A stretch of 64,000 bases of DNA from a virus: the IMG/VR virus record IMGVR_UViG_3300044655_000639, positions 1-64,000 of that record; one strand, given 5' to 3'. Made by a program: the position numbers and the translations under genes. The notes under the pieces are model-generated. The model searched no databases. It was not told the origin of the DNA and saw nothing but the letters and a program-made list of their open reading frames with translations. Shown here piece by piece: positions 6,101-57,455 of this stretch; position 1 is the stretch's first letter; each line of letters starts with the position of its first letter.

Positions 6101-9100
6101 CTGGTACTGATGGAAAGCTAACAGTAAATGAAATGCTAGAAGCTAAGAAGAAATTCTTAGAAGGAGACATAGGTCTAAAAGTACTAGGAGATAAAACTGT
6201 AGATCTAAGTGGAGTAGATACTTCTGTATCTAAGCATAAAGCCAAAGAGAAAGCAGCACAGACTCTATCAGAGAAACTACATGAAGCACTGAACAATGGT
6301 GCAGATGTAGCAACAGCTCTACAATCTGTGGTAAATACTATAAAGGTGAGTGAAGAGTATGGTGCTCTAAAGCAGAAGGTTCTAGATGCTCTATCAGGTA
6401 AGACTATAACATTCAGTAGAAGTGATCAAGGCTTTACTGGAGGTAATGGTAAAGTAACAATACCTACTGGAAAGATAGGAGAAGAAAGATTCGTAGCTTC
6501 TGCACAGAGAGCTACAGCAATGACTCCTGAAGGGCTAATAGAGACATTAGCACATGAGATAGATCATGCCTATAAGCTAAGCTATATAGAGAGTGATACA
6601 GGGCTTAAATCACCTGAGGTGAAGTATCTAAATAAAGTGGTAGAAAAGCTACGGAGAGAGCGAGATAAAGGTAATCTAACAACACTATCATCAGAAACCC
6701 AAGCACGTATAAAGTATATAGTAGAACATAAAGATGCTGGGAGAGCTGTGAGTGAGCTGGTATCAGTACTAGAGAATGAAATCTCTGTATCCAATGAGAT
6801 TAAAGGAATAGTACAAGCACCTACACTTCTAGAAGTGCTATCTAACCTCATCAAGAGAGTGAAGGAATGGGTTAAAGCAATGACTCAAGATGAGAGAAAA
6901 TCTCGTATAAGTGAAGCTATGAGTAATGATGATACTACTATGATGGCACTAGAAGCATCTCTAATAGAAGTAAGTATTAACTCTAAAGCATATGGTGTAG
7001 GAGATGGTAAAGCTATGGCTAGAGCTTCAGCTAAGTCAGATACTGATACGGTAAATGATCCATACTTCAATGAGAATCTAAATCCGTTAGTAGCAGCTAA
7101 TAAAGCTATGGCTAAGTCTAATAGATTCCTATCAGACTGGATGATCATATGGGGTGATCTAATAGCTCAAGAAGTAGGACCTATAGCTGGTAAGTTCCAT
7201 AATAAGATGAAAGAGAAATATCCTGTGTATGTTCAGACAATGAGTATGATACGATCAGGATTCTATGAGAGTGAGTGGATGCAAAAGATGCATACAAATC
7301 TAGGAGTAGATGGATCAAGATCTGAAGTAATCAATAAGCTGCAGACTCTACGTCATGAGATAGGGCAACAGACAGGAGCACTAGCTAGAAAGATGGCAGA
7401 GCTTAAAAGAAGACAAGAAGAAGTCTATACAAAGAAAGAGCGTAATACATTATATGCTATGTTCAAGACTGGTATAGGGCATCTATCAACAGAAGAGCTA
7501 AAGACAGTACATGATGGTATCTTCAATGGAAGTATGACATATAAAGAAGCTATAGCTATAGTATCTGATGGTATGACTGCTGATCAAATAAGACAGTTAG
7601 ATAATGTTGCTAACTACGTAAATACTGGTAATACTACTGAGACAGCAAGAGAAGTGAATACACTATTCATAGAAGGTGTATCAGAAGAGAAAGGTGGAGC
7701 ATACGTAGCATTGAAAGCATTATCTCAAATACCTGGATCACTAGAACTGCTAAAGGGCATGGATAAAGATATGCTGAAAGAGATGCTGTCTATTGCAAAT
7801 GCTAACAAACATCTAAGTGAAGTAATCAATAGAGCAAAGACAGACTACACAGGTAAGAAGATCACTAATGAAGCTGGTTACTATAGTGACTATGATGTAA
7901 CGTATGCTATGGACATCTTCAATGAGAATCATGAGTATGTACTGATCACTGCAGAAGATCTAAAAAGAAGCATCTACTCAGAAACCAATGGATGGTTTGT
8001 AGTAAAGGGTGTAGAGAATGGAGTAGGTCTGGTAGGAAGAAAAAGTTATTCTCCTACTAATAGACCAGGTGTTGGACTAGAAGTAACAAGATACCAGAAT
8101 GGTGTATACCTAGATCCAGAACAATCAGCTAAGATGGATAACATAATAGGAAAGTTAAAATCTAAAGAAGCAGTATCAGCATATCTAGATGCAAACAGTA
8201 TCACAATGGATAATGGTAAATACAGATTTGTAATAGATGAGAAGACTAAAAGAGAGAAACTTGATCTAGTAGAGGATTCAGCTGAGTCTCTATATAGAAC
8301 ATATATCAGAAACTTCGAACTAGTACATGCTCAAAGTATTAAGGATATAGTGCTCAATGAAGGAATTCAACATATCAATACAGAAAAGGATATGCTAATC
8401 CTAAATACTATTCTAGAAACTAACAATAAAGAGAGAGGTCTACTAAGTAGAACTAAAGTACTACCATTCCTAAAAGTAAACTATGATATGAAGATGACAT
8501 ATGATGAAATGGCTAAGAAATACCCATACATTGCAATGTATTTTAGAACTCCTAATAATCTATCAACATATCAAGAGTTCAACCAGAACATAACATTTGT
8601 AAAGAAAGGTGAAGGTGATGTGCTGTTAGGATACAAGCCAGGAACATTATTCGCAGATAGTGATAATAGATCCCTAGCAAAATGGGAATCTATGTATAAG
8701 AAACTAATAGTACTATCAAAGCAAAAGATGATTGTAACAAACCCTAAGAAGCTTGCTGTAGATGCTGCTGCTAACATGGGGATCCTATCTATGTATGATA
8801 TGGACCCAATGTCTATATTCAGAGGAATGAAAGATGGATTCACAGAGTACCATAAGTTAACAGCTAAAAGAAACACTCTAGTAGATGTGGAACTTAAAGC
8901 AAGAATAGCCTTCAATAGTAAAGATACTGCAAAGTATGAAGTACTGATGAAAAGACGTGATAAGATAAATGCTCAGCTAAAAGAGATGAAGTTCTATGAT
9001 GCATGGAAATCAGGTTTCATACAGTCATACAGTACAGATCTAGTACTTAAAGAGTTTGATACTATCAGTGGTATCCAAAGAGATATAGATATATTCATAG

Positions 9101-9792
9101 ATAAATATACTATTGATGAGAAAGGTGATCCAAATGCATTGTATAAAGCTATAAAGTGGTGGCAAGAAGCTGGAGGACCAAAAGCTAATGTAGAAACATT
9201 CTTCAGTGCTGTTAGTAAAGCAAGTGCATTAAAAGGGACAATGTTAAGTACTGAGTTAAAAGAGCTGAGTGAGAGATTAAAGAATAAGAAGAATGAAGAG
9301 AGTGTGGCAAGGTATGTCAGCGAGTTCCTAGGAAGTCCCTCATCTGAAGTGGTAAGCTATGGTAGTGCTACTATGGTGTTGATAGATGCCCTATCTAAGT
9401 ATCTTCTAGCAAATCACCTAATGACTCAAGAGAATCCTAGAAAGGGTAAAGTAGGTGCAAGACCTATGTATACTAAAGAAGAAGCATACGCTATAGCTCA
9501 AGAGACATTCATAGACTATAGAGATAATCTTCCAAAAGAAGTACAGACACTAAGTGACTATGGTGTATTACTGTTCCCAGCATACTGGATGCGAGTACAG
9601 AAGATACTAGCGGGACTAGCATTGTACCACCCTATAAGCTCGCTAGGAGGATTTGCAATAGAAGCTTCACTAGGTATTGAGAGCATGAGTGCAATGAACT
9701 CTAACCTGTTTACAAAGGGGGCAAATGAAGGGCTTATAAACCTAAACCCAGCTGAGGTGATAGATGCAGGTTCTGTAATGGTATTGCTCTAA
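106..9792 (+). CDS. giant N4-like virion RNA polymerase with exonuclease and HEXXH domains
   Basis: This 3228-residue protein matches the size class of the N4 virion RNA polymerase, which is packaged, injected with the DNA and transcribes early genes. The single-subunit polymerase motifs are readable in order: a TxxGR-like block near residues 1303-1325 (INERVH, then FQGDKF), motif A DATASG (D1433), motif B R1503-x3-K1507-x7-YG1516, and motif C VHDD (H1923, D1924). A DEDDh exonuclease lies between motifs B and C: FDTET (D1598, E1600), AHSASFD (D1690), HDAAYD (H1752, D1757). A zinc-peptidase-like HEIDH follows at 2150-2154. The first ~1000 residues contain Ala/Gly-rich and helical stretches typical of injected virion proteins; the last ~1000 are unassigned. 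The start has AAAGGA upstream. The polymerase call rests on motifs read by eye. Confidence 0.88.
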   Translation: MNLTELRNQAAKDIQAERSKIGSSSYINNTNIPYNEPTLADRRYTGLAPYGEPTKAEKLLEARNEKINRLHALTSTSSGAQLQQALSDIVDQQVYTDANGNKYQEMYGKDSNGNTTITKVPYTKENAYGNEDTRNLYIDNTLEGNMKLGLARSDKGFLGRYTPTEDSKGKKYGWTPGPKGVTPQDGALMDIQLPYNVATQFEHGVHSNRGQLANRAIGQGPVSKQDIANFGSGKTEYTTQNAPMWNQSANTNPRLAPNTPLPKEMDKLHKYQNGLQITDSNLIDALQYGVGRKAAGIADAIVDAGGQVAVAGYGMMNPEMTQEQVQKKMAKTMGGNSFTKDYYNKNGDFIGLDKYKKAAEYGYDDATTQAAMADFGKAFDSGSPVEMAKSIARNLDAAPEFIAESAGEFLTGPMRAAGVILNTFDYANKTLERRQEETGKAYTTLGDKALAGLTGWGQAILNKAGVDEMIGRTKIVSGVMDKLIKSNKLTDGMVLNAGKRLAGALTVATGKGLYEGTEEVAQQFLDIVGAKLGDEKANEIFSSKTGRELFQAFGGGFGSGAGMHVVTSPKETIGAVLSPVMATTNKGLTSLAEISANRTVADIDARKAKEYIAKQNEVTAAENAKIEEIKAQEEAVTPITSTTTADTLDLTREDISTDEINSAATDLVTKTIQAQEAGTVYEPTVNEQAFQAAYGEAVNAKFTEVYADIATNTNTTNAGLTKATPKQMSEGSRKLNDNPELAAQNTVLDKLSTKVSEAKTEVERTNAEVAYNYHLNNVVTPLINSIRGFDDAGNLISTVETSSATTPAKGTPTMAVSDRTSETIQQEIEELGTSRDNTYVEDLQRYVDNGMGIEEAKKKAHSNSRETFNKIKALEEELKTVKANEVSQDKAFKEQGISDDDLTIYKNAGIANIISVDDRAKGLGIEIDTDKVQLKEGSTKKNKLYDPMKADNATLDSIIESGFNKDTIDALDVSNKGSTFLQRLSKHFTFGKEKQVELTKIAKDITAKLSNPTVKEAMTKVSGTDTSTAQALRAITVAVSAVRSATTAEFDITHGEGAKHNGYAPQLGLAEQVGKAYLNSFGAKLKGKDSESMAAKHKEIGMNVLKLAEAAGYVESASNMSFQVHNRVTPKGDRVSTSRDGGKSDIPVGQKSGTFANTGYRVKGDKDSSRIPENAVGSTLSSLDKIFNPINEEMVMSTPSDVVTSKNPISKEHQQIIKDMQGMKFRIKAPFIELLKSIKASLGDNMEANLSTNPDIKKLLGLDKKSTLLTKMGDSGKSIQRKGNLLKLLENLDELEAMSKDGFHFTLDTAINERVHIMQTLLEFQGDKFMSRQILTGGEYTTGNKYEYDMLINDIKDNLPKGMEYNDDRLTAAVKDFNKGVFNGDQAVFNIVATMKALGFDSPFKMLNVLQGMADVQKADGYKVTTEYVPSADATASGVMNTLMNLIGMPSIQNMFNNWISGGKFDPYTALLDAVDLDKEGSFSERALATNNVFNILYKGSNRDITKYPIIKWIYGQWKGNTEREMADSIAVDLLKAATTGNQDALNEVNRILATANKEGYEDILVGDIAVRSGDAHLIKEAEELEATIKDGNYVIFDTETTDSTQGKNNHIIQASIRIFKNGVEQEPVMIHVPLEDGITISQGAFEIHKVSEEILKSKIKNGETRKGQIAKIRRAIGSLPIIAHSASFDTSALQLGDGKIITNKVHDTMALAKIAQYEKAAQDGGKTTGGVINIKALSKTYGIEYDDKASHDAAYDTAQTKLLIQPMLDRFNSVKSKLKVEGANNISNLTEEDKKVITDYYQTNISSLYVPALDKAFPGVKEYSTAMKTLYGILQTSKVWDGRIKSAMGVMQGTGNKMSVRKLKNVVQDVDGDLTQIDKEMDNETSFLVNLQHSVDAALLLLSMQKVLNNPNLTEVSVMTVHDDFRAQPKVLREIMAEYNKLTREVAVKYDFLSVAMDEVQEVIEKLEAKENKTPEEIKTLSVVKAQYNSFKNDRQFPGTDGKLTVNEMLEAKKKFLEGDIGLKVLGDKTVDLSGVDTSVSKHKAKEKAAQTLSEKLHEALNNGADVATALQSVVNTIKVSEEYGALKQKVLDALSGKTITFSRSDQGFTGGNGKVTIPTGKIGEERFVASAQRATAMTPEGLIETLAHEIDHAYKLSYIESDTGLKSPEVKYLNKVVEKLRRERDKGNLTTLSSETQARIKYIVEHKDAGRAVSELVSVLENEISVSNEIKGIVQAPTLLEVLSNLIKRVKEWVKAMTQDERKSRISEAMSNDDTTMMALEASLIEVSINSKAYGVGDGKAMARASAKSDTDTVNDPYFNENLNPLVAANKAMAKSNRFLSDWMIIWGDLIAQEVGPIAGKFHNKMKEKYPVYVQTMSMIRSGFYESEWMQKMHTNLGVDGSRSEVINKLQTLRHEIGQQTGALARKMAELKRRQEEVYTKKERNTLYAMFKTGIGHLSTEELKTVHDGIFNGSMTYKEAIAIVSDGMTADQIRQLDNVANYVNTGNTTETAREVNTLFIEGVSEEKGGAYVALKALSQIPGSLELLKGMDKDMLKEMLSIANANKHLSEVINRAKTDYTGKKITNEAGYYSDYDVTYAMDIFNENHEYVLITAEDLKRSIYSETNGWFVVKGVENGVGLVGRKSYSPTNRPGVGLEVTRYQNGVYLDPEQSAKMDNIIGKLKSKEAVSAYLDANSITMDNGKYRFVIDEKTKREKLDLVEDSAESLYRTYIRNFELVHAQSIKDIVLNEGIQHINTEKDMLILNTILETNNKERGLLSRTKVLPFLKVNYDMKMTYDEMAKKYPYIAMYFRTPNNLSTYQEFNQNITFVKKGEGDVLLGYKPGTLFADSDNRSLAKWESMYKKLIVLSKQKMIVTNPKKLAVDAAANMGILSMYDMDPMSIFRGMKDGFTEYHKLTAKRNTLVDVELKARIAFNSKDTAKYEVLMKRRDKINAQLKEMKFYDAWKSGFIQSYSTDLVLKEFDTISGIQRDIDIFIDKYTIDEKGDPNALYKAIKWWQEAGGPKANVETFFSAVSKASALKGTMLSTELKELSERLKNKKNEESVARYVSEFLGSPSSEVVSYGSATMVLIDALSKYLLANHLMTQENPRKGKVGARPMYTKEEAYAIAQETFIDYRDNLPKEVQTLSDYGVLLFPAYWMRVQKILAGLALYHPISSLGGFAIEASLGIESMSAMNSNLFTKGANEGLINLNPAEVIDAGSVMVLL

Positions 9793-11880: not shown

Positions 11881-13679
11881 GTACAGCCTAAGCAGGTATC
11901 AGACATCATATCTATTTCCTTATGTTGTATTTGTTTACGTTCACCTGATGCAGTAGAAGCTGATACTCCTGCAGTAGAACGGACGTAGTATAGTGACTTG
12001 ATCTTCTTCCTCCAAGCAAGAATGTGAAGGTCTGAGATGAACTGTACAGATGATCCTGCTGGTATGAAGATGTTCAGTGACTGTCCCTGATCAATGAGAG
12101 CAGAACGATCTCCAGCAAACTCTAGCAGCCAACGCTGATCTAACTCAAAAGCAGTCTTGAATACATCCTTAATATTCTGTGGCATCCAATCTAGATGCTG
12201 TACAGAACCACTGTTCTTCTTAATGGAGTCCCACTGCTGAGATTCCCAAGCACTAGGATATCCTTCTCCTGCCTCATTAAAGAAGTCAGAGATATACTGT
12301 TCAAGATACTTATTCTTAATAGCAAAAGATCCCTGCTTAACCTTCTTAGTGAAAGCATTAGTGACCCAAGGCTCAATACCAGATGAAGTAACACCACACA
12401 ATGATGAGATACTCATGGTAGGAGCAATAGCAGTAACGTGAATGTTACGTTTCAATGTTCCATTACGATCAGACATAGGGCACTTATGACCTCCTACATG
12501 TAAGCTAGCAATCTCATCATTATGATTATCAGCTGATTCCTTAATCATACTGAAGATCTTCATGTTAAGACCTTTAGCAATAGAGGATTCCCAAGGAATA
12601 AGCTTAGACTGTAGAAGTGAATGGAAGCCCATTACTCCAAGTCCGATACTTCTTTCGTCAATGGCTCCTGCTCTAGCTCGCTCGAATCCACTGAGATGCT
12701 CAGTACGGTTGATGAAGTCTTGAAGTACGTTGTCAAGATAATCAGAACAATCAGCAATGAACTGATCAAAACAATGTTGGTACTCATCCCAATACTCAAG
12801 ATTAATGCTACCAAGACAACAAACTCCACTATGGTTATCGTCAGTACGAAGCGTAATCTCAGTACAGAGGTTAGATGTTGTAACTTTGATGTTTTCATTC
12901 TTATATTCCTCTGGTGCTAAGTCATTGACAGTATCAATGAATAGTAGATAAGGTTCTCCTGTAGTAATACGAGCCTCTAGGATCTGAGACCATAGCTTAC
13001 GAGCTGATACAGTACGAACTACTGCTCCAGTCTTTGGTGATAATAAATTCCAGTTGTAATCATTCAAGACACAATGCATGAAGTCATCAGAGATAACCAC
13101 ACCATGATGGAGATTAGGAGTTCTACGGCTACTGTCACCAGTCTCCTTACGGATATCAATGAACTCCTCAATCTCAGGATGTGAGATATCAAGGTATGTA
13201 GCTTCAGAAGCTCTACGAAGACCTCCCTGACTGATGGCAAGAGTACTACGGTCTGAGATACCTAAGAATGGTATGAGTCCAGAAGACTTTCCACCATGAG
13301 GTCCTACAGATTCATTGACTGAACGTACCTTAGACCAGTCAGTACCAATACCTCCACCATAAGCACCAAGGTTAAATGCTTCATTATAGTTCTGGAAGAT
13401 GGAGGGTTTATTGTCAGCAACACTCTTAGTGAAGCATGATATAGGAAGTCCTCTATCAGTACCAGCGTTAGATGAAATAGGCGTTGAACCATGCCACCAG
13501 TAATTTTTTAAATATATAGCCATACGATCAGCATGTTCTGTATCGTTGGCATAAGCATTGCTTACTCTATGTACCCATTGATCATAATCTTCGTTGGGTA
13601 AAAAATAAGTTTCTTTATACAATGCTTTGGAAAAGTCAGGTAAGCCTGACCAACTTCTACTATGTAATAGCTGTAACAT
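11877..13679 (-). CDS. nrdA: class I ribonucleotide reductase alpha subunit
   Basis: 600 residues, shorter than bacterial NrdA because the N-terminal ATP-cone is absent. Catalytic features are present: C82 in GLPISCF and the partner cysteine in GVCCLGSINL (C287/C288), SNLCTEI with N270, C272 and E274, the YY radical-transfer pair in SLYYVRS, and the C-terminal redox pair C596-LG-C599. The start overlaps the end of an HNH endonuclease gene by 20 bases. Absence of the ATP-cone suggests no dATP inhibition through that domain, as in some phage enzymes. Confidence 0.93.
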   Translation of the reverse strand: MLQLLHSRSWSGLPDFSKALYKETYFLPNEDYDQWVHRVSNAYANDTEHADRMAIYLKNYWWHGSTPISSNAGTDRGLPISCFTKSVADNKPSIFQNYNEAFNLGAYGGGIGTDWSKVRSVNESVGPHGGKSSGLIPFLGISDRSTLAISQGGLRRASEATYLDISHPEIEEFIDIRKETGDSSRRTPNLHHGVVISDDFMHCVLNDYNWNLLSPKTGAVVRTVSARKLWSQILEARITTGEPYLLFIDTVNDLAPEEYKNENIKVTTSNLCTEITLRTDDNHSGVCCLGSINLEYWDEYQHCFDQFIADCSDYLDNVLQDFINRTEHLSGFERARAGAIDERSIGLGVMGFHSLLQSKLIPWESSIAKGLNMKIFSMIKESADNHNDEIASLHVGGHKCPMSDRNGTLKRNIHVTAIAPTMSISSLCGVTSSGIEPWVTNAFTKKVKQGSFAIKNKYLEQYISDFFNEAGEGYPSAWESQQWDSIKKNSGSVQHLDWMPQNIKDVFKTAFELDQRWLLEFAGDRSALIDQGQSLNIFIPAGSSVQFISDLHILAWRKKIKSLYYVRSTAGVSASTASGERKQIQHKEIDMMSDTCLGCT

Positions 13680-14145
13680 CTGTACACCTTTTTGAATGAA
13701 TTTTTCTATGACAGTTGCTGCATACTAAGATACACTTATCTACTTCAGTCTTCCAACTTTCAAAAGGAGACATATCTATCTTCTTATGAATTCCAAACTC
13801 TTTAGTAGAAGGGTCTAGATGATGAAAGTCAAATGGTGCAAAGCACTCATCCTCATAGTTACAAATAGAGCAAGCTATCTTTCCACCTAAATGCTCTTTA
13901 ATCTTTAGCACATTGGCTGAATAGTAGTTAGCTCTTCTATTCCTATTTGTCTCTCTCTCACGTTCTCTATACCCATCTTTTCCATTATTTCGTGTAGGAA
14001 TAGTAGTATCTTTTTTACATTGCTTACACATAGGTCTAAATTTCTTTGATCCTGCTGTGTATCTACTGTATCTTATAAATGTGTCTAAGGCATCTGTATA
14101 ACTATCTGACTCTTTACCACATCTATTACACTTTATATAGCACAT
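13660..14145 (-). CDS. HNH endonuclease, free-standing homing type
   Basis: 161 residues. Two Cys pairs near the N terminus (CNRCG and CKQC), a basic linker, then the nuclease core CSICNYE, FDFHHLDP and CSNCHRKIH form an HNH/zinc-finger fold. It lies directly before nrdA, a frequent homing target in phages, and overlaps its start. It has its own promoter-like region upstream. It is inferred to be a mobile gene that cuts endonuclease-free nrd loci. Confidence 0.82.
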   Translation of the reverse strand: MCYIKCNRCGKESDSYTDALDTFIRYSRYTAGSKKFRPMCKQCKKDTTIPTRNNGKDGYRERERETNRNRRANYYSANVLKIKEHLGGKIACSICNYEDECFAPFDFHHLDPSTKEFGIHKKIDMSPFESWKTEVDKCILVCSNCHRKIHSKRCTDVTAIT

Positions 14146-29753: not shown

Positions 29754-29770
29754 AATATTCCTTGTTCAGT

Positions 29771-29845
29771 GAAGACTGGTAGGGCTTGAACCTACAACTC
29801 AGCGCACCTACGCCCTGTATTCAGACCAATTGAACTACAGTCTTC
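29771..29845 (-). tRNA. tRNA-like element with imperfect anticodon arm
   Basis: An acceptor of 8 bp, GAAGACTG/CAGTCTTC, a D-stem GTTC/GAAT (one G-T), and a perfect T-arm GTAGG-TTCAAGC-CCTAC are present. The extra G-C acceptor pair recalls tRNA-His. The anticodon arm does not close properly: CAGGG/CGCTG with one mismatch and an 8-base loop. CCA is not encoded. It is probably a decayed or unusual tRNA. Confidence 0.5.
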
Positions 29846-29851
29846 GTGTTA

Positions 29852-29888
29852 TGGTGATATAGCGAATGACAGTGAACATTCCTATATC
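29852..29888 (-). other. tRNA minihelix-like hairpin ending in ACCA
   Basis: On the minus strand GATATAG-GAATG, loop TTCACTGT, CATTC-G-CTATATC and then ACCA form a 12-bp helix with one bulged G. This is the shape of a stacked acceptor plus T-arm, without D and anticodon arms. Confidence 0.4.
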
Positions 29889-30113
29889 GTGACTAAATCT
29901 TTAGACTTATTTAAAAGTTTATCACTGTAAGTTTTTTGATAGCTAATACCTCGTGCTATCAGCGAGGATAACAGTTGCAATCTCAACCAATTGAGACCAC
30001 TGCTATACGATTAAACACACATAGATTGGTTTGTGACAGTATCTTCTCCAGATGACTGTATAGAGTACACCAATACATGTAAAGATGTAATCAATACAAC
30101 CATCCTAAGATGG
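29889..30113 (-). other. noncoding stretch with a D-arm-like remnant
   Basis: No gene is seen. On the minus strand GTCTC-AATTGGTT-GAGAT has D-arm form and is followed by CCTCG/CGAGG (near 29948-29968), but there is no room for an anticodon arm. It is probably a tRNA remnant. Confidence 0.3.
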
Positions 30114-30665
30114 CTATTCGTTAAATAGAAACTTCATATCCTCAGGTATACATTCATACATTGCTTCAGCTACTTCTCTGATTTGGAAGTGTGCTGAAGA
30201 TGCTCTACGAAGCTCTAGGAAGTTCTTTAAGCTTCTAGCGTTAAACATTACTGTCCAGTTGTATTGGAAGGCTTGTGGTAGCATTAGAGATACAATCTCG
30301 TTGGATACTCCATCTTCAACAAAGCGTCTAATTTCATCTTGTAGATATGATAATACATTGTCTACTTCACTATTCCCAGTAGACTCAAATACAATATCAG
30401 TCTTATTCAATGTGTACCTACTTGACTGGCAAGCATAAGAAGCCATACGATGACGAGTCATTTCAAGAAGCACTTTTGTACTAGCTGATATGTCAAATGT
30501 GAATGTAGCAAACTCCAATACACTAGAGTGCTTATGTTTTAATGCTACCTTAGTGATACGATTATCACGTTTAGTAGTATCAGTATAATCTCCTTTAGCA
30601 TAGCAAAGTCCAATACTATGGTCTATGCCTTCTAGCCCTTGATGTGCAATTAATTTAACTTTCAT
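30114..30665 (-). CDS. thyX: flavin-dependent thymidylate synthase
   Basis: 183 residues from the start at 30665, which has AAAGGGAA upstream. The ThyX motif RHRxxSxxxxSxRY is present as RHRMASYACQSSRY at 71-84. ThyX methylates dUMP using methylene-tetrahydrofolate and FAD/NADPH. Slightly shorter than typical ThyX (200-250) but with all core blocks. It supplies dTMP alongside the phage ribonucleotide reductase. Confidence 0.93.
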   Translation of the reverse strand: MKVKLIAHQGLEGIDHSIGLCYAKGDYTDTTKRDNRITKVALKHKHSSVLEFATFTFDISASTKVLLEMTRHRMASYACQSSRYTLNKTDIVFESTGNSEVDNVLSYLQDEIRRFVEDGVSNEIVSLMLPQAFQYNWTVMFNARSLKNFLELRRASSAHFQIREVAEAMYECIPEDMKFLFNE

Positions 30666-30708
30666 CTTATTCCCTTTTTTAATATTTGTATAGCTATTGC
30701 TACGCATA

Positions 30709-30924
30709 TTATTGAAGCAGATAATAGTAGTATTGAGTAGGAGTCCATACTTCTTTTAGGTCTCTACGGTTATCTTCTCCAACAAATCGTTTTCCATCTA
30801 ATGTAAACATATCTACATCATTTCCAATAATGGCAACTACTGGGTATTCGCCACCTTTATTAGTACATAAAATACGTACTGGCTTACCATTACTGGTATA
30901 CTGTTTGTTAATATCTATTGTCAT
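30709..30924 (-). CDS. 71-residue conserved small protein
   Basis: TSNGKPVRILCTNKGGEYPVVAI is cut from a widespread small phage protein pattern (GKPVRILC and YPVVA). It overlaps the upstream gene by ATGA. Function unknown. Confidence 0.72.
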   Translation of the reverse strand: MTIDINKQYTSNGKPVRILCTNKGGEYPVVAIIGNDVDMFTLDGKRFVGEDNRRDLKEVWTPTQYYYYLLQ

Positions 30925-31337
30925 TTACGCTCCCTTTTAGTTTCTAATACTTTGAACCATTTATTGGGTCGTCCGAAATAAGACTCTGCTTCGAGTTCTG
31001 TCATGTATTTATTTGTAGGACAATAAAAGTCATCAGGAGTACGCAAATCAAGCCATAAGTATTCGTACACTGGCTCTGGTGGTTTGATACGATATTTTAT
31101 AGCTGTCCCAAATGGGTAGTCTGTATACCACTTTCCTTCTAGCTCATATTGAAGTATTTTAGTCGTATCCTCAACCCATTCATGGATTGCTTCAGAGTTT
31201 GAATGAGGATTAACCCCTCTTGGAATACATACATTTTGTGAGAAGAATTCATTGAATACTTCTGTAAGTATAGGTCTACGATAATCCTCTGGATTAAATG
31301 TCCCAAATACTTTATCTTTCAATTTTTCTTTAGTCAT
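30921..31337 (-). CDS. 138-residue unknown phage protein
   Basis: Starts MTKEKLKDKVFGTFNPEDYR; the middle has IKPPEPVYEYLWLD and the end is basic (KTKRERK). It has single-base or ATGA overlaps with both neighbours. No domain recognised. Confidence 0.7.
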   Translation of the reverse strand: MTKEKLKDKVFGTFNPEDYRRPILTEVFNEFFSQNVCIPRGVNPHSNSEAIHEWVEDTTKILQYELEGKWYTDYPFGTAIKYRIKPPEPVYEYLWLDLRTPDDFYCPTNKYMTELEAESYFGRPNKWFKVLETKRERK

Positions 31338-31666
31338 TATAATTCCTTTATAAAACTAGGTAGTTCACCTATTAACGGCTCACAGTTGCTAGAGTTTAAC
31401 CAATCTTCATCAATATGTTGTTGAGTTGCCTCTATAATGGTTGGAATTTTGTAGTCTAAAACTTGTGACCAAACCCATTCACCAACTTTTGGTTTCCAAA
31501 GCTCACAGTGTTGTATATTAATATCATAGTTTCTAGTGTTGTCTATGGTGTCTCTAGTATACCAACCTTTTACACGAACAGTAGTAGTGCACCCTTTGTG
31601 TAGAGAGTCTATTTTTCCTATACCGAATACATTACTTCTAACCCAATCGCCTACTTTAAGTTCCAT
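31337..31666 (-). CDS. 109-residue SH3-like repeat protein
   Basis: The start at 31666 gives six bases from AGGAG; an ATG three bases earlier also exists and overlaps the upstream stop. Two similar beta modules are visible: LKVGDWVRS and later PKVGEWVWS, both SH3-like. Role unknown. Confidence 0.68.
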   Translation of the reverse strand: MELKVGDWVRSNVFGIGKIDSLHKGCTTTVRVKGWYTRDTIDNTRNYDINIQHCELWKPKVGEWVWSQVLDYKIPTIIEATQQHIDEDWLNSSNCEPLIGELPSFIKEL

Positions 31667-32249
31667 CATAAACTCCTATATATTTTCATAACATCTTTAG
31701 CTTGTTTGTGCCCTAATTTACTATACCCTTTGTACCTCTTAATAGCTAAGAAATATGTACCATAGATATCAAGATAGTCTCTAAGAAGCTTAGCAGCATT
31801 CATGATATTACCTGAGTCATGGTAAGGATTGTATGGCAAGATAGAGCCACAAGTCATGTTGATACCACATAGACCTATTACGTTTGGTATGGCGTGTTTA
31901 CGGTGCACAAATGAGCTTTCAGATGCTATCAGTGCACCTAGTACTTTGGGTCTAAATTATATGTCTCTGCTGCTTTGATGGTATCTTTAGCTTGTTGTGG
32001 AGATGCTCCTAAAGTCTGAAGGGCTTCTGCTGTGGTTCTGTATGACTCAAGTTCTTTGTTGAGAGCATCTATCTCTCTGAAAGCCGCTGAGGCTTCTACT
32101 CTAGCTTGGTTGTCCATACTCAAGGACTGTTCTAAGACTCGTTCATGAGTGGATATGAGCATGCAGGATTGATTGCAGTATACGAATGGTATTGCAATGA
32201 TAGCAATAAGAATAGGAAGAATAATATCTTCATCAATGCTGATAGTCAT
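31666..32249 (-). CDS. membrane-anchored lytic transglycosylase made by -1 frameshift
   Basis: The frame from 32249 reads to Lys102 (AAG at 31946-31944), then continues in the -1 frame from GTA at 31944 to TGA at 31666, giving 194 residues. Residues 10-26 are a membrane helix and 35-85 a coiled coil. The SLT domain spans the junction: IKAAETYNLDPK, then VLGALIASESSF with catalytic Glu111, then GLCGIN and AAKLLRDYLDIYG. Without the shift the SLT part has no start codon before its catalytic Glu. It is predicted to cut peptidoglycan glycan strands from the inner membrane, early in infection or at lysis. Confidence 0.75.
31902..31950 (-). promoter_or_regulatory. -1 programmed frameshift signal
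   Basis: The slippery heptamer C-CCA-AAG (31950-31944) is in the correct zero frame. After a 5-base spacer a 7-bp stem GGTGCAC (31938-31932) / GTGCACC (31908-31902) follows with a 23-base loop. The zero-frame stop TAG lies 4 bases after the heptamer. Confidence 0.75.
31938..32249 (-). CDS. zero-frame product: short membrane coiled-coil protein
   Basis: Without frameshifting, translation from 32249 stops at TAG 31938, giving 103 residues: a membrane helix and coiled coil without the SLT domain. The start overlaps the previous stop by ATGA. It may be a regulator or partner of the longer product. Confidence 0.65.
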   Translation of the reverse strand: MTISIDEDIILPILIAIIAIPFVYCNQSCMLISTHERVLEQSLSMDNQARVEASAAFREIDALNKELESYRTTAEALQTLGASPQQAKDTIKAAETYNLDPKY

Positions 32250-32506
32250 TGTGCCAACTTTGCTTCTGCTTGCTGTAGAGTAAGACCATCTTCCATCAAT
32301 GACTGTACCATATAGCAATGTCCTATGATGATGTCAGAATCATCTTTCTCTTGCTGTAGCTGTTTGTTTTCCTCAAGCAATAGTCTGGCTTGAGCATTAG
32401 TAAGTACACTACTATACCACGCTATGATGGCCATAATGAAGAGACCTGATGACAACCATCTGTAGAAGGTACGAGAAGCTTTTAAGTGTTCATATGTTTC
32501 TCTCAT
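32246..32506 (-). CDS. 86-residue membrane coiled-coil protein
   Basis: A basic N terminus, one membrane helix (SSGLFIMAIIAWYSSVL) near 19-36, then a coiled coil (LLLEENKQLQQEKDD). The topology resembles the next gene and i-spanin-like proteins. It is coupled by ATGA overlaps on both sides. Confidence 0.7.
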   Translation of the reverse strand: MRETYEHLKASRTFYRWLSSGLFIMAIIAWYSSVLTNAQARLLLEENKQLQQEKDDSDIIIGHCYMVQSLMEDGLTLQQAEAKLAQ

Positions 32507-33229: not shown

Positions 33230-33463
33230 CTATGCAAAATCCTGTAGAAATTTAGGTGGAAATGCTAGCAAATATAATGACATTAAAAACTGTGCAGTCA
33301 TACCTACTATTAACATATCTCCACTACCATGAAAGAAATTCATGACTACTAATAACATACCTAAGTCTAGTATAAAATCTCCATAGCGTTTATGTTCCCA
33401 TTTCCATTTAAGAATGGCAAAGTCAAAGAAGACTATAAGTCCTATAACTATTAATTGTTCCAT
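33230..33463 (-). CDS. 77-residue multi-span membrane protein
   Basis: The start at 33463 overlaps the stop of the upstream gene as TAATG. Three hydrophobic segments: LIVIGLIVFFDFAIL, LDLGMLLVVMNFF and MTAQFLMSLYLLAF. A small inner-membrane protein; exclusion or holin roles are possible but not shown. Confidence 0.65.
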   Translation of the reverse strand: MEQLIVIGLIVFFDFAILKWKWEHKRYGDFILDLGMLLVVMNFFHGSGDMLIVGMTAQFLMSLYLLAFPPKFLQDFA

Positions 33464-33903
33464 TAGATCCTGTCTCTCCCATGTCTGATAGCATGGCATG
33501 AATGACATACTGATACACACTGTTCTGTGGTAAATGTCATTGATTCTATACCATCATAATGTTCATGATGGACCTGTAGTGGAATGTCACAATCACTGCA
33601 ATCTACACAGTGATATTTATCCCTCTTGAGTACCTGTTTACGAAGTGCTCTCCATTCTGGAGACTTCAAATATACTGCGTATGCTGAGTAGTATTCAGGT
33701 GGAACCTTCTGTAGTGGTACATGTACATGATGATCTAAGTCAACTGTATATGGTGTGGTAGCACATGTACTTCTAACTGGAGATTCTCCAAGTAATACTC
33801 TGATAAGCAGTAGAATTGGAATGAATAGTATTCCTGCTACTGTAGTGATAGCAAACCAGAAGAATGCTAATACTAATAGCAATGCTTCCAGTAATACTGG
33901 CAT
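33463..33903 (-). CDS. membrane-anchored HNH nuclease
   Basis: 146 residues. Residues 1-38 are one long or two short membrane helices (ALLLVLAFFWFAITTVAGIL then FIPILLLIRVLL). From ~75 comes an HNH domain: SPEWRALRKQVLKRD, HCVDCSDC, LQVHHEHYDGI and CVSVCHSCHAIRHG, with two Cys pairs for zinc. A membrane tether on an HNH nuclease is uncommon and may act on incoming DNA. Confidence 0.75.
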   Translation of the reverse strand: MPVLLEALLLVLAFFWFAITTVAGILFIPILLLIRVLLGESPVRSTCATTPYTVDLDHHVHVPLQKVPPEYYSAYAVYLKSPEWRALRKQVLKRDKYHCVDCSDCDIPLQVHHEHYDGIESMTFTTEQCVSVCHSCHAIRHGRDRI

Positions 33904-34789: not shown

Positions 34790-36604
34790 TTAGTCTTCAT
34801 AAGACAACGGCATACCTGCCATAATGTCATCTCTACTAAGACTACCTTTAGTGATACGAAACTGTAGTGATGGATCAATCTGAGTAAGAATATCATGAAG
34901 TAAATTCATGTCATTAACATCAGCCATAACAGCCTTAACAAGACTGAATAACTTCTCTTCATTACCTTCTTCAATACCATATGAATCATGAATCATACTG
35001 ATAGCAAAGTCAGCTCTACGGCATACTTCTCTAGCTATGAACGACTCTACAGAACGTACAATATTAGGAGCTAAACTTCTGTTATACTTAGTATTATTAG
35101 GAACTTTAGCTTCAATAGATACACTATGAGTCTTACCCATTTGAAGATCAGCATAGTATCCTTTATGTGTAACAGTCTCCATTACATCATATGATACAAC
35201 AAAGCCATCAGGCATTGTCCACTGATAGTGTGATTGGTTCTCATTGTTGAATCTATAGATAAGATTCATAAGCTTAAGTGCTGCAGGAGCAAGCTCTTCT
35301 AATGCAGTCATAATGAACTTATATAGACCAGCTTTAAGCTCTTCTGGAACTAAGTCTCTGATAGTATGTGTACCAGCATAACGTACATCATCCTTGATAG
35401 TATCAGTATTATCCAATAGCTGTTTCTCCATACCACCATAGAATGCAATCATTACTAAGTGTTTAACTGTATCCTTAACAAAGATACTACTACCAGTATG
35501 CTCATTAAGTCTTCTAGCTAATTCAATACGTAAGTCTTCCAACTCAGTATCTGAGAGTCCTACTCTACTACCTGTCAATGGATCACTACCAAGTAATGCA
35601 TATACTTGTAGATTATTATTTCTACAGTCATACTTCTTAATACTGTTGCCATTGATTGTAAGCATACGCTTCTGAAATGAATCACCTTGTGGATTAAGGT
35701 ATGGACTACATGAATGCATACGTCCTGAACTATTCTCAAATGCATATGGCACATGGAATGTCTCATCTTGAAATCTATGAATATCTTCTACTAACTTGTT
35801 CCACTCTTTAGCCATGAATACACCATCTTTATCAAACCATTTGTCTTGTAATTTATACTCTTCTAATAAAGGAACTAGTTCTTCATTAGGTATAAGCTTA
35901 AATGGTACTGACTGTTGGTGATTCAATGCAGATAATGCTGCTTCACCTTGTGCTGTAAGACCACTAAGCATAGTCTTACCTGATAAATACGTTCCTCCTT
36001 TATTCTCTGCAGTATGTGCTACTAATCTATAAGCTGCTCCTCCACTACGTACTGTAGAAGCTTTAAGATAGAGTCCTTCTTCTTGTAAGAATGCTTGTAG
36101 TTTAATACTAGGCTCAATGATATTATGTGTATGAGCTTTGTCTGTCTTAATGATCTTATTTTGTAGAAAACCAGTATCTTTAAGGAACTGAATAATGTTA
36201 GCTCCAAGTGTAGCTTTAGTGCTGTGACTAGCACGTACTCTACCTGTACTTAATGTTATTACTTTGTTACAAAGCTGTTGACCTAGCTTGTAACCTGCAA
36301 TCCTGTGTTCGAGGTAACTATGGCTGATTACAAGATCCTCAATGAGGATTGTAAACACTTTAGCCCACTGAATATTGTGTTGAGACAACAGCTCATGATG
36401 GTACTCTTTATGTTCTATCTCACTGTTATTAATAGCTATTAAGTACTCACTCCAATTACTGCCTAATGTCTCTGCATTAAGCTTAGAAACACTGTCTTTA
36501 ATTGCTAGTCTAAGACCAGCTAAGCTATAACTAGCTTCGTATGACTGCTGCTTAGCAGCAACTGCTTGGATTTGTGCAAATGTAAGTGTTGATAATGTTT
36601 TCAT
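34790..36604 (-). CDS. T7-like single-subunit RNA polymerase
   Basis: 604 residues from the start at 36604 (GAGGAG upstream). Motifs: SSGRMHSCSPYLNPQGD (TxxGR-type), motif A KKYDCRNNNLQ with the catalytic Asp, motif B KHLVMIAFYGG, and motif C MIHDSYG. It lacks the long N-terminal promoter-binding part of T7 RNAP (883 residues), matching the size of the N4 middle polymerase. N4 RNAPII is two separate chains; here all motifs lie in one chain. Likely the middle-gene polymerase, needing phage cofactors such as SSB. Confidence 0.88.
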   Translation of the reverse strand: MKTLSTLTFAQIQAVAAKQQSYEASYSLAGLRLAIKDSVSKLNAETLGSNWSEYLIAINNSEIEHKEYHHELLSQHNIQWAKVFTILIEDLVISHSYLEHRIAGYKLGQQLCNKVITLSTGRVRASHSTKATLGANIIQFLKDTGFLQNKIIKTDKAHTHNIIEPSIKLQAFLQEEGLYLKASTVRSGGAAYRLVAHTAENKGGTYLSGKTMLSGLTAQGEAALSALNHQQSVPFKLIPNEELVPLLEEYKLQDKWFDKDGVFMAKEWNKLVEDIHRFQDETFHVPYAFENSSGRMHSCSPYLNPQGDSFQKRMLTINGNSIKKYDCRNNNLQVYALLGSDPLTGSRVGLSDTELEDLRIELARRLNEHTGSSIFVKDTVKHLVMIAFYGGMEKQLLDNTDTIKDDVRYAGTHTIRDLVPEELKAGLYKFIMTALEELAPAALKLMNLIYRFNNENQSHYQWTMPDGFVVSYDVMETVTHKGYYADLQMGKTHSVSIEAKVPNNTKYNRSLAPNIVRSVESFIAREVCRRADFAISMIHDSYGIEEGNEEKLFSLVKAVMADVNDMNLLHDILTQIDPSLQFRITKGSLSRDDIMAGMPLSYED

Positions 36605-36622
36605 AATATTCTCCTCAGAATA

Positions 36623-36640
36623 ATACACTCTATGGTGTAT
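36623..36640 (-). promoter_or_regulatory. ATACAC-TCTATG-GTGTAT inverted repeat
   Basis: Perfect 6-bp arms around a TCTATG core, 19 bases before the start of the RNA polymerase gene. Candidate promoter or operator. Confidence 0.5.
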
Positions 36641-46412: not shown

Positions 46413-46637
46413 ATGGCTGCTGAAACGTGGGAGGAGGTACGGTATCACGTCCTTGGACAACTTCCCGTCCTCAATAAAAAGATTGATAGTCTTGAGACAA
46501 AGCTAGGAGTCGTAGAGACTAAGTTCGAGTCAGGGATGGCGGTGATAACCACTAAGATGGGGATGATAACTTTTATATCATCATCAGTCGTATCTATCAT
46601 CGTAGGACTTGCAGTACATTTTTTGGGAGGTAAGTAA
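46413..46637 (+). CDS. XhlA-like coiled-coil membrane protein
   Basis: 74 residues. A coiled coil (LNKKIDSLETKLGVVETKFE) is followed by one C-terminal membrane helix (ITFISSSVVSIIVGLAVHFL). This is the layout of XhlA/haemolysin-type holin partners. GAGGAG precedes the start. Confidence 0.65.
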   Translation: MAAETWEEVRYHVLGQLPVLNKKIDSLETKLGVVETKFESGMAVITTKMGMITFISSSVVSIIVGLAVHFLGGK

Positions 46638-46762
46638 TGCACAAAGTAGACAAGCTCTCTAGGGAGTTGGCAAGACTGATACAAGAGAAGAAATACAAAG
46701 AGGCGAAAGCTATATACGAAGAACTAGGCGAAGTCCTAGAGACTTATCAATGGTGCTGTTAG
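46637..46762 (+). CDS. 41-residue small helical protein
   Basis: MHKVDKLSRELARLIQEKKY starts with TAATG on the upstream stop and ends 8 bases before the peptidase gene. Charged helix with terminal CC. Likely part of the lysis cassette. Confidence 0.6.
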   Translation: MHKVDKLSRELARLIQEKKYKEAKAIYEELGEVLETYQWCC

Positions 46763-46770
46763 GAGAATAG

Positions 46771-47223
46771 ATGATGCAAGGTTTTCATCCAAAGTTTACG
46801 TGGGAAGAGCTTATACGTACAAATCATAGTAGCTTACAAGCTCAAAATATCAAAGAGGCACTGAAGTATCAAAACGCTGGTAAGCGGTTATCAAAGCTGT
46901 TGGGAAGCATCAGAGAAGCGTATGGATTTCCTATCTCTATTACAAGTGGGTTTCGTTGTCCAGCTCTCAATAGGGCTGTTGGAAGTAAGGCTAAGACCTC
47001 ATCACATATGAGGTTTGAAGCTGCTGATTGTATTCCCGTTGGTAAAGATTTCAAGCACTTCTTTAATTGGCTCAATGAACATAGTATCGAGTTCCCTGAT
47101 TTACGCAAAGCAATCATCGAACATCATAAGGGGTTGGTGCATATTGAGGTGAAGATGGATGCTGAGGAGCCTCAAGTATTTTACACTACGAATGACAATG
47201 TGACGTTTAAGGCGGTGGCATGA
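46771..47223 (+). CDS. M15-family peptidase endolysin
   Basis: 150 residues. ITSGFRCPALNRAVGSK, SSHMRFEAADC (H and D zinc ligands) and LVHIEVK (third His) form the peptidase M15 / D,D-carboxypeptidase-like site. It would cut peptidoglycan stems or cross-links at lysis. No signal peptide, so it needs the holin. AGGAG precedes the start. Confidence 0.85.
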   Translation: MMQGFHPKFTWEELIRTNHSSLQAQNIKEALKYQNAGKRLSKLLGSIREAYGFPISITSGFRCPALNRAVGSKAKTSSHMRFEAADCIPVGKDFKHFFNWLNEHSIEFPDLRKAIIEHHKGLVHIEVKMDAEEPQVFYTTNDNVTFKAVA

Positions 47224-47441
47224 GTAAGTTACTAGAGCTTATTACAGACCCTAATGGGTCACTGTCCCATACGAAGATATGGAGCAATATTGGGATGGCT
47301 ACATTGACAGCTACGTTTATCATCGGGACATACAGTCATGGTATCACTCCTGAGCTGATTGTGGCGTATGGTGGAATTGTAGTGTTCGGGCGTGCAACAA
47401 GCAAGTACTTGGATACTAAATCAGTATCTACGGGGGAATAG
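47220..47441 (+). CDS. putative holin
   Basis: 73 residues with two hydrophobic segments (IGMATLTATFIIGTYS and LIVAYGGIVVFG). It overlaps the endolysin gene by ATGA, the usual holin partner position. Length and topology fit class II holins. Confidence 0.6.
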   Translation: MSKLLELITDPNGSLSHTKIWSNIGMATLTATFIIGTYSHGITPELIVAYGGIVVFGRATSKYLDTKSVSTGE

Positions 47442-47777
47442 ATGGTATGGATTACGTTTTTAAAGATGTACTGGAAATATGTTTTGGTTTTTGTGTGCTT
47501 CTCACTATTTTCTATCTCGCTAGTGGGGATGAGGATATCCAACACTGAGTTAAGAGCTGAGAGGGATATGTACTCTACAGCACTAGAGTTCCAGAATGCT
47601 TCACTACTAAAGCATAAGAAAGAATATGATGAGAAGTTATCTAAACTGCCTAAAGAGATTGAAAAGATTACTGTTAGGTATAAAGTTATTTATCAAGGTA
47701 TAGATGATTGGAAAGGAGATGATAATGCAACTGATTGTGAAAATGCTGATAACTACCTTCGTAGTTTTAACTATTAG
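47442..47777 (+). CDS. i-spanin (Rz-like)
   Basis: 111 residues: an N-terminal membrane anchor (WKYVLVFVCFSLFSISLVG) and a coiled-coil periplasmic part (LLKHKKEYDEKLSKLPKEIE). The o-spanin gene begins inside it in another frame, the classical Rz/Rz1 arrangement. It would fuse inner and outer membranes at lysis, so the host is Gram-negative. Confidence 0.8.
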   Translation: MVWITFLKMYWKYVLVFVCFSLFSISLVGMRISNTELRAERDMYSTALEFQNASLLKHKKEYDEKLSKLPKEIEKITVRYKVIYQGIDDWKGDDNATDCENADNYLRSFNY

Positions 47778-47961
47778 TGGATGTAGCCATAAGATACTAT
47801 ATGTGCCTAGTGAGTGTAATATCCCAGACTACTCAGAAGTGGTCTTAGATCTAACAGATAGAAATACAACTCTAGGAGAATCTAAGAGATGTACTATCAA
47901 CTACACAAAACAAAAAGAAGCTAATGAGAAGATGGTGAAAGCCATAAAGCTTTGTCAATAA
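47725..47961 (+). CDS. o-spanin lipoprotein (Rz1-like)
   Basis: 78 residues from ATG 47725, six bases after AAAGGAG; earlier in-frame ATGs are worse placed. Signal sequence MQLIVKMLITTFVVL with lipobox TISGC. Overlaps the i-spanin gene by 53 bases. Longer than lambda Rz1 and not Pro-rich. Confidence 0.8.
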   Translation: MQLIVKMLITTFVVLTISGCSHKILYVPSECNIPDYSEVVLDLTDRNTTLGESKRCTINYTKQKEANEKMVKAIKLCQ

Positions 47962-51072: not shown

Positions 51073-52425
51073 ATGGCAATGATAACTGATCCAGATAATC
51101 TGGTCGTAGGTACAAACCTAACATTCAATACAGGAGCAAGAACATTTGACTTTGTTGTAGCAGGTGGACTGGTAGCAAAGGATGGTGTAGATACTAATGC
51201 ACTATGGAGTAAGCTTGTAGATCTATGGTCTACTGCAACATACAAGCCATTTCCATTCCCTATGAACAAGATTGATAATCGTTCAGGACAGTATGTGTTT
51301 GGTAGAGATCCAGGTGGTAACTACAATGGATGGAAACCAGGAAGTGATGCAACTCGTCAGATGCTACGTAATGGTGGATGGTCAGAGTACAGTAATGCTG
51401 GTGTACTGAATAGGCAGTACTTCGGTGCAGTTCTCCAAGGTGGAGTATCTAGCGGTGCACAGATGTACTTCCAGAAAACAAGTGGCGGACCAGCTATCAA
51501 CTATACGTTTACAGACTTGCCTAATGAAGCGGTACAAGTGTTTGGAGATGCAAGTAATGGCAGCTTTGATAATCGTACATACTTCAAGTCATTTGTTAGG
51601 GAATATGGGTATACCTATGATGATGCTTCTCTAACAGATATTTCTGAGACAGCTACTGGAGCATACAAGCTTCCATTTGGTATTAACTCTAGTGCAGACT
51701 CTGATATTCAAGCTACCGATGGTGATGTGGCTACACTAGCTCCGTATACTGGTATCACAATCAAGTATGATACTGCTGTTACAAACGTAAGTATTGGGGC
51801 TGGTAGTTATCCATTCAAGAAGCATATCACTCCTAACGGTGCAACCATCAAGCAGATCTATACAAAGATGCAGTATCAACTACGTCAGAATAGTAATATC
51901 AATACTGGGGGTACAGGTGGTGTAGTGACTGGTAAGACTGCTGACCTAATCTGCTGGTTCGTAGGACCAACACTATATAGTAGAGCATTCTTTATACCAA
52001 GTCCTGCTGACCTCAATAGTGTAATCTTCATTGATGATAATGGAGTAGAGAGACAATTCCCATATGCATCAGCTGGGACACTGAACTTCAATGCTCCACT
52101 GACTGCAGGTGGTACAGGTGACTATACATTATATTACTCAACTACTCCAGGAGGTAATGACTATGGTGAAAGTACAGCAGTAGTAGTGAACGATAAAGAT
52201 GGAGTACCCATCACAGGAACAATCACTGGTGCAAGTATTGCATTTACCTTTGACTATTCTAATAATACTCAAGGTGGATATGCAGGGGGTACAAATAGGA
52301 ATGTGGTATTAGCATGGGGTAATCCAGGTTCAGCAAAACCAGGTATCAGTACTGGTACAATTACACAATCTAAAGGTATCAGTATTTCAGCAGTAGCAGA
52401 AAGTGATCCATCATACATTCAGTAA
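51073..52425 (+). CDS. tail/appendage structural protein
   Basis: 450 residues, starting MAMITDPDNLVVGTNLTFNT. The block ALWSKLVDLWSTATYKPFPF and VFGDASNGSFDNRTYFKSFV, with Gly/Thr-rich strands, resembles large phage tail appendage proteins. AAGGAG precedes the start. A specific role is not assigned. Confidence 0.6.
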   Translation: MAMITDPDNLVVGTNLTFNTGARTFDFVVAGGLVAKDGVDTNALWSKLVDLWSTATYKPFPFPMNKIDNRSGQYVFGRDPGGNYNGWKPGSDATRQMLRNGGWSEYSNAGVLNRQYFGAVLQGGVSSGAQMYFQKTSGGPAINYTFTDLPNEAVQVFGDASNGSFDNRTYFKSFVREYGYTYDDASLTDISETATGAYKLPFGINSSADSDIQATDGDVATLAPYTGITIKYDTAVTNVSIGAGSYPFKKHITPNGATIKQIYTKMQYQLRQNSNINTGGTGGVVTGKTADLICWFVGPTLYSRAFFIPSPADLNSVIFIDDNGVERQFPYASAGTLNFNAPLTAGGTGDYTLYYSTTPGGNDYGESTAVVVNDKDGVPITGTITGASIAFTFDYSNNTQGGYAGGTNRNVVLAWGNPGSAKPGISTGTITQSKGISISAVAESDPSYIQ

Positions 52426-52468
52426 ACTTTAAGGTTAAGTAGTGCATAATATTGGAAAAAGAGGTAAC

Positions 52469-53344
52469 ATGATAGAAAAAATAAAATCATTAGCTACTGA
52501 TTCCAAGTACACTACTTGGTACTGTAGTATTATAAATAATGCTATGGCACGCACAGATGATATTGAAGGAGAGCGGCATCACGTGGTTCCACGAAGCATC
52601 TGGCCTGATGGCATTTTGCTTAAGGAAAACATAGTAAAGCTTACATATAAGGAGCATTATGTTTGCCATAAACTACTAGCAAGAATGCTGATAGATCCTG
52701 CACATACACGTAAGATGCGCTTTGCTCTATGGAGGCTAACACATAAGCGTGTCAATGATCAGATGTGTAATTCTAGAGATTATGAATCTGCCAAAGTGCT
52801 TCACAAGCAAGCACTTGAAGAGCTATGGGCGCAGGATGGGTTTAGAGAAGATATGCTAAAAAGTCGTAAATGGTTTTACGAAAGTGAGGATCAAAAATCT
52901 GCTAATAGCAGACGAGCTAAAGAACGACTACAAAACCCAGAGTTTCGTGAAAAGTTTTTTAAAGCTGCCAATGAAGCAAATAAAATAATCAGAGATTCTG
53001 ATCCTATAAAATGGGCACAACAATCTATGAGATCTGCAGAAGGAAAAGCTAATGCTAAAAAAACACAGCAAACTGATAGCCATCGCAAAGCTTGTAGCGA
53101 ACGAGAATTAAATAAATCCCCCGAGCAAAGATTAGCGCTGGCCAAGCAAGGCCAACAAGCTCTAGTCGACAAGCTCGGTGGAGAAGAGGCGTATCGTGAG
53201 TACTTGAGCAATAGGATTAAAGGACGTCGCAAGTACATTAATCCTAGCGATGGGTCAATACGCATACTTCGTGAAGCCGTTGATGGGTATGTGTTGATGG
53301 CTGACTATAAGCTAACTGTAAGGAACCATTATGTTTATATTTGA
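52469..53344 (+). CDS. HNH homing endonuclease
   Basis: 291 residues from ATG 52469 (GAGG upstream; the earlier GTG lacks a site). ERHHVVPRSIWPDG, ENIVKLTYKEHYVCHKLL is the HNH core; a long basic middle and a C-terminal NPSDGSIRILREAVDGYV (NUMOD-like) would bind DNA. It stands alone between tail genes and overlaps the next by 14 bases, as mobile genes do. Confidence 0.82.
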   Translation: MIEKIKSLATDSKYTTWYCSIINNAMARTDDIEGERHHVVPRSIWPDGILLKENIVKLTYKEHYVCHKLLARMLIDPAHTRKMRFALWRLTHKRVNDQMCNSRDYESAKVLHKQALEELWAQDGFREDMLKSRKWFYESEDQKSANSRRAKERLQNPEFREKFFKAANEANKIIRDSDPIKWAQQSMRSAEGKANAKKTQQTDSHRKACSERELNKSPEQRLALAKQGQQALVDKLGGEEAYREYLSNRIKGRRKYINPSDGSIRILREAVDGYVLMADYKLTVRNHYVYI

Positions 53345-56609: not shown

Positions 56610-57455
56610 ATGAGCTATATAGTATATAAACACACCAATAATATTACAGGTAAGTCCTATGTAGGTCTGACTAAATACACAATAGAGCATAGATGGTCTC
56701 AACATGTGTATGAAGCTATGAAAGGCAGACGTAACTATAAGTTCTATAATGCTATAACTAAGTATGGTACTGATGTATGGACAAGTGATACGCTAGTGTA
56801 TGATATAGAAACATTCGAGGAAGCTGCTATACATGAAAAGTACATGATAGCTTTATATGATTGTATAGATAATGGTTACAATATATCAGAAGGCGGTGAA
56901 GGTTGCACTATAAAGGCAGGTCCAAGTCACCCACTGTATGGTGTCAAGAAGAGTAAAGAACATGTTGATAAAAGTGTGAAAGGGACTAAAGAAGCTAAAG
57001 ATAAATGGACAGAAGAAAGACGTATGCAGTATAGTGCTACATGTGTAGAAGTTCTCAGAAAGAGATGGGAGACTATAGAGTACTCCTTCTACCATGAGGA
57101 TTATGGTGTAGTAACAGGATTTGTATCTGATATAGCTAACAAGTACCAACTATACTCAGGGTATCTTAGATATGTAACAAAGGGCAAATCTAAACACTGC
57201 AATGGATGGTTTCTGTATACAGGTGATAACGGGGACTATACCAAAGATCCTATATACACTTTCACACATGAACTATATGGAAATGAGACTTTAACCTTAA
57301 AAGATATGAGTATTAAGTATAATCTATCAAAAGGTAATCTATGCATGGTAGCCAAAGGACAGCGTAATCACACTGGAGGTTGGAGACTAGCAATGATGGA
57401 TGCTAAGGCATTCGATGCTATGAACATGCCAAAAAAAGAAGGAGTAAAGAAATGA
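56610..57455 (+). CDS. GIY-YIG homing endonuclease
   Basis: 281 residues. IVYKHTNNITGKSYVGLTK gives the GIY-YIG-type core with R in HRWSQH and E in AIHEKYMIAL; GYNISEGGEG follows. The second half contains two DNA-binding repeats (FVSDIANKYQLYSGYLRYV and LKDMSIKYNLSKGNLCMVAK). The C-terminal 20 residues resemble the portal C terminus. Mobile gene inserted after the portal. Confidence 0.85.
   Translation: MSYIVYKHTNNITGKSYVGLTKYTIEHRWSQHVYEAMKGRRNYKFYNAITKYGTDVWTSDTLVYDIETFEEAAIHEKYMIALYDCIDNGYNISEGGEGCTIKAGPSHPLYGVKKSKEHVDKSVKGTKEAKDKWTEERRMQYSATCVEVLRKRWETIEYSFYHEDYGVVTGFVSDIANKYQLYSGYLRYVTKGKSKHCNGWFLYTGDNGDYTKDPIYTFTHELYGNETLTLKDMSIKYNLSKGNLCMVAKGQRNHTGGWRLAMMDAKAFDAMNMPKKEGVKK

Follow-up and report, generated by a model that had tools for sequence, protein, structure and literature searches.

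Introduction

Programmed -1 frameshifting at X_XXY_YYZ heptamers is known in bacterial systems, including dnaX, IS3/IS911, lambda G-T, and T7 gene 10, which yield polymerase, transposase, tail-chaperone, or capsid products. In tailed phages, it is known mainly for tail chaperones and a few capsid genes. Phage lysins spread over two frames have also been reported or predicted. A phage peptidoglycan-hydrolase gene split over two overlapping frames, with a proposed frameshift, was reported earlier (Shearman 1994, cited in PMC10885494) and, by its title, is the lysin of a phage of a Gram-positive host. In Alteromonas virus vB_AspP-H4/4, a predicted -1 frameshift joins an endolysin gene to another frame (genes 39/40), and the shift is said to make an internal virion protein out of an endolysin gene (PMC5658483). 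In addition, the CTP1L and Ms6 endolysin genes each give two products, one of which lacks the catalytic domain in CTP1L, although these arise from an internal start that produces a C-terminal fragment (PMC4777826, PMC3111421). The SLT-type transglycosylases represented by PRD1 P7 and phrog_13449, by contrast, are encoded in frame, and the SLT domain of P7 starts near residue 6 without an N-terminal anchor before it.

Here, we analyzed a locus on the minus strand of a 64,000-nucleotide stretch (the window) of IMG/VR virus record IMGVR_UViG_3300044655_000639, which is 74,282 bases long. Like the bacterial frameshift genes named above, the locus has a heptamer in the correct phase, a zero-frame stop just after it, a downstream hairpin (its stimulatory role is inferred), and conservation of the slip site in homologues. 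However, the shift here is predicted to add the catalytic head of a wall enzyme to an N-terminal membrane anchor. Unlike the lysin of Shearman 1994, the present gene encodes a predicted membrane-anchored SLT-like protein, lies outside the lysis cassette, and is conserved in two phage types. Full-text searches gave no frameshifted SLT-type enzyme, within an open-licence literature that omits most subscription journals. The claim of a sequence-only reading that no phage transglycosylase made in this way has been described holds only narrowly, given the split lysins above.

Results

Anatomy of the frameshifted gene

The gene lies in a tightly packed series of small genes downstream of an RNA-polymerase-like gene. 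The features of the locus are as follows.

31666 to 32249, minus strand: whole frameshifted gene, a 194-aa fusion of a predicted membrane segment, a coiled coil, and an SLT-like domain
31938 to 32249, minus strand: zero-frame ORF of 103 aa with an ATG at 32249, a predicted membrane segment (residues 9-25), and a coiled coil, ending DPKY* with the stop TAG at 31940-31938
31944 to 31950, minus strand: slippery heptamer C_CCA_AAG
31902 to 31938, minus strand: downstream hairpin, putatively stimulatory (7 bp + 3 bp + 3 bp, -15.6 to -17.0 kcal/mol), after a 5-nt spacer (TACTA)
31666 to 31956, minus strand: -1 frame ORF with the SLT-like domain and the predicted catalytic Glu (E111 of the fusion, ESSF motif), stop at 31668-31666
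32246 to 32506, minus strand: stand-alone 86-aa membrane/coiled-coil protein, whose stop overlaps the ATG of the frameshifted gene (ATGA)
30921 to 31337, minus strand: 138-aa neighbour protein
30114 to 30707, minus strand: ThyX-like thymidylate synthase

The last codons of the zero-frame ORF are GAC CCA AAG TAC TAG. Reading C_CCA_AAG with one base re-read gives PKVLGALIASESSF... and continues to the stop of the -1 frame; the predicted peptides across the joint are NLDPKVLGALIASE... and NLDPKVLGALIASESSFVHR. The sequence-only reading described this arrangement correctly, except that it placed the zero-frame stop 4 bases after the slip site, whereas the TAG begins 3 bases (one codon) after the heptamer. 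It also gave the stem as 7 bp (GGTGCAC/GTGCACC), but the stem is longer, with these 7 bp (31938-31932 / 31908-31902), a 1x1 mismatch, and then 3+3 bp.

The slip site and hairpin exceed chance expectation

To determine whether a random deletion could produce this picture, we deleted every base-run position of the long genes of the window in turn. The overlap of the two frames then held any X_XXY_YYZ heptamer in 3.8% of cases (0.3% when the overlap is 5 codons or fewer, as here), one of the three best E. coli heptamers in 0.46% (144/31,162), and CCCAAAG in 6 of 31,162. CCCAAAG occurs only once on the two strands of the window. In E. coli, C_CC.A_AA.G is the most efficient of all 64 heptamers, reaching 54% with the IS3 pseudoknot (PMC4066793). 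The 51 nt after the heptamer fold to -17.0 kcal/mol (z -3.2); only 0.12% of synonymous recodings of the same peptide fold as well, and 0.05% of coding windows have such a fold starting 4-9 nt in. A search for a pseudoknot revealed only weak 5-6 bp loop pairings. A scan of the window for two long frames joined by X_XXY_YYZ gave two places, and only this one has a hairpin. Elsewhere in the window, AAAAAAA at 57431 (plus strand) lies in the phase of a -1 slip at the end of ORF 56610-57455, with the next gene open in the -1 frame, but these are probably plain overlapping genes.

The two frames read as one SLT-like protein

Pfam PF01464 (SLT) matches residues 91-173 of the fusion with an E value of 0.0014, although the score of 18.6 bits is below the curated cut-off of 21.3 bits. 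Likewise, phrog_13449 gives 1.6e-7 for the fusion against 0.0059 for the -1 part alone. PRD1 P7 aligns with 34% identity over about 100 residues, with YNLDP on one side of the joint, ESS on the other, and no gap there. A profile of the fusions compared by hhalign with a profile of PRD1 P7-type SLT domains matched with 98.2% probability over 93 columns, again without a gap at the joint. Codon usage is gene-like only in the zero frame upstream and in the -1 frame downstream. In addition, no ATG, GTG, or TTG lies in the -1 frame between its upstream stop and the catalytic Glu in any lineage. Searches of solved-structure sequences gave nothing for the SLT part, and single-sequence and 4-sequence AlphaFold models were uninformative (pLDDT 41-42).

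The split is conserved in diverged relatives

Single-protein scans of viral contigs and an exact DNA search revealed no close SLT relatives, in collections from which records near the window are left out, and plasmids gave no match. Contigs with related large terminases (TerL), including a 72% relative, had no homologue of this protein; one contig (G007) has a PF01464 hit below the cut-off that is not similar to it. In another, a 79% relative (L011), the terminase at 1305-3085 is not a continuous frame, probably because of a sequencing indel in an older dataset.

We searched with the neighbouring ThyX (30117-30665), which found contigs with 76-90% identical ThyX. Six of them (L121-L126), from six metagenome datasets, carry an SLT-like protein 43-44% identical to that of the window over the SLT part in the -1 frame, split at the same codon. 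The site reads CCCAAAG TAC TAG in the window, CCCAAAG TTT TAG in L121-L124, and CCCAAAA TAT TAG in L125 and L126. L121-L124 are 99.9-100% identical to each other around the gene and count as one lineage, whereas L125/L126 form the second, 83% identical to L121 across the gene. Between these lineages, Ks is 0.45-0.64 and Ka/Ks is 0.28-0.30 in the zero frame and 0.22-0.26 in the -1 frame, against 1.3-1.6 for wrong-frame readings, which indicates purifying selection on both frames. Loss of the heptamer in close relatives that keep both frames, which the sequence-only reading had named as grounds for rejection, was thus not observed.

The relatives also have hairpins after the slip site (-12.2 and -11.8 kcal/mol). 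However, these are weaker, differ in sequence and in spacing (3 and 9 nt), and are only marginally above the synonymous null (p = 0.025 and 0.06, compared with 0.0012 in the window), so a conserved stimulator is likely but not proven. The Pfam scores of the relatives (19.6 and 15.4 bits) are likewise below the cut-off. While the catalytic-type SES motif is invariant in all copies, the canonical motifs GLMQ and AYNAG are replaced by GLCG/GAFG and RYKG/AYKG, which leaves catalysis uncertain; PRD1 P7 has GLMQ and AYHGG.

Genomic context

The window has an N4-type layout, with a 3228-aa ORF at 106-9792, of giant virion-RNAP size (judged by size only), and a large terminase 36-37% identical to those of Schitoviridae isolates. 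The giant virion polymerase gene (N4 gp50-like) of Alteromonas phage AD45-P1 (KF005317.1 90623-102305) is itself annotated as a potential frameshift. The RNA-polymerase-like gene of the window (34790-36628, minus strand) is a 612-aa ORF weakly similar (24%) to RNA polymerase 2 of an Alteromonas N4-like phage and looks like one long ORF. A homing-endonuclease-like gene (phrog_655) at 52442-53344 (plus strand) lies next to a 450-aa ORF at 51073-52425, and further HNH genes are present at 13660-14145 and 33463-33903.

The relatives are about 42-kb contigs. The one annotated, L121, has a 2093-aa tape measure protein and major head protein, scaffold, portal, and terminase families, so it is siphovirus-like and unrelated in structure genes to the N4-like window. 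Nevertheless, the ThyX of the window is 88-90% identical to that next to the gene in L121-L126, the 138-aa neighbour has a homologue (32% identity) that also follows the frameshifted gene in L121-L124, and the late lysis genes are shared in part. A tRNA-like gene at 29769-29845 (minus strand), with an odd two-base anticodon call by ARAGORN and an Rfam tRNA hit, lies next to a stretch (29853-30059) that is 95% identical in DNA to L121, L122, and L124. The frameshifted gene therefore travels between phage types, probably of the same hosts.

In the window, the gene sits in the early/replication operon, while small membrane proteins, an M15-type peptidase endolysin (phrog_894), and an overlapping Rz/Rz1-like pair with a lipobox form a complete-looking late lysis cassette at 46413-47961 (plus strand). 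L121 has the same division. The stand-alone 86-aa protein directly upstream is related to the zero-frame module of the L121-type gene (47% over 30 residues), which suggests that the anchor module alone is a functional product.

Discussion

Our analysis strongly supports a programmed -1 ribosomal frameshift, and we hold this explanation with high confidence, although it rests on sequence and not on a measured shift. Ribosomes would translate a short membrane-anchored coiled-coil protein; at C_CCA_AAG, probably with help from the hairpin 5 nt downstream, a fraction would slip back one base, bypass the TAG, and add an SLT-like lytic transglycosylase domain, giving 103-aa (no catalytic Glu) and 194-aa (with catalytic Glu) products from one message. 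We infer that the short form co-assembles with the long form through its coiled coil and limits the number of catalytic heads. The membrane-tethered muralytic enzyme proposed by the sequence-only reading is likewise an inference, and its fixed ratio of products rests on no measurement. The acidic N terminus of the window protein does not clearly predict N-in/C-out topology, whereas the relatives have a more negative C-side, which favours C-out. From its place in the early/replication operon of two phage types, each with its own late endolysin and spanins, the gene most likely remodels the wall locally during infection and does not carry out final lysis.

Of the alternatives, it is possible, though unlikely, that the frameshift is real but the SLT-like head does not cleave peptidoglycan and instead binds glycan or another partner, for example, as an exclusion or lysis-timing factor. 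The loss of the GLMQ glutamine and the AYNAG asparagine in all copies, together with the location away from the lysis cassette in both phage types, would fit this reading. However, the ES motif is invariant, and PRD1 P7, which also deviates in the third motif, is annotated as a transglycosylase. It is more doubtful that the protein is the main endolysin, a membrane-anchored (SAR-like) lysin made in small amounts by frameshifting. Although it combines an N-terminal membrane segment with a muralytic-type domain, the separate late cassettes of the window and of the relative argue against this role. Independent translation of the downstream frame, by reinitiation at the TAG or at the GTG at 31908, is very unlikely. 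The L121 and L126 -1 ORFs have GTGs too, and the stop and restart lie close together, but the GTG starts lie past the catalytic Glu, SLT homology is continuous across the joint, and the conserved element is a slippery heptamer and not a start. Transcriptional slippage also seems unlikely because the runs are only 3-4 bases. Finally, a sequencing or assembly error or a chance frameshift mutation in a plain in-frame fusion, with one base missing in the C or A run, would give the same picture in the window alone, where no second copy of this exact locus was available and the 98.6% identical sibling contig does not reach it, but it is excluded for practical purposes by the same split in L121-L126, the purifying selection on both frames, the rarity of this heptamer among simulated deletions, and the intact state of the other long genes of the window.

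More tentatively, the locus could represent a horizontally mobile early-gene cassette in which -1 frameshifting sets the ratio of anchor-only to catalytic subunits of a membrane-bound wall enzyme. This would be a phage peptidoglycan-remodelling system outside the holin-endolysin-spanin pathway, for example, for superinfection exclusion or controlled wall opening, carried by a distinct SLT subfamily with GxxG and YKG in place of GLMQ and AYNAG.

Mechanistically, this is an ordinary bacterial -1 frameshift; what differs from the described cases is the gene in which it occurs. A frameshift that decides whether a membrane protein carries a catalytic wall-cutting head, kept in two unrelated phage types, would be a translational means of dosing a potentially lethal enzyme. 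Automatic gene callers split or miss such genes, so similar ones may be overlooked.
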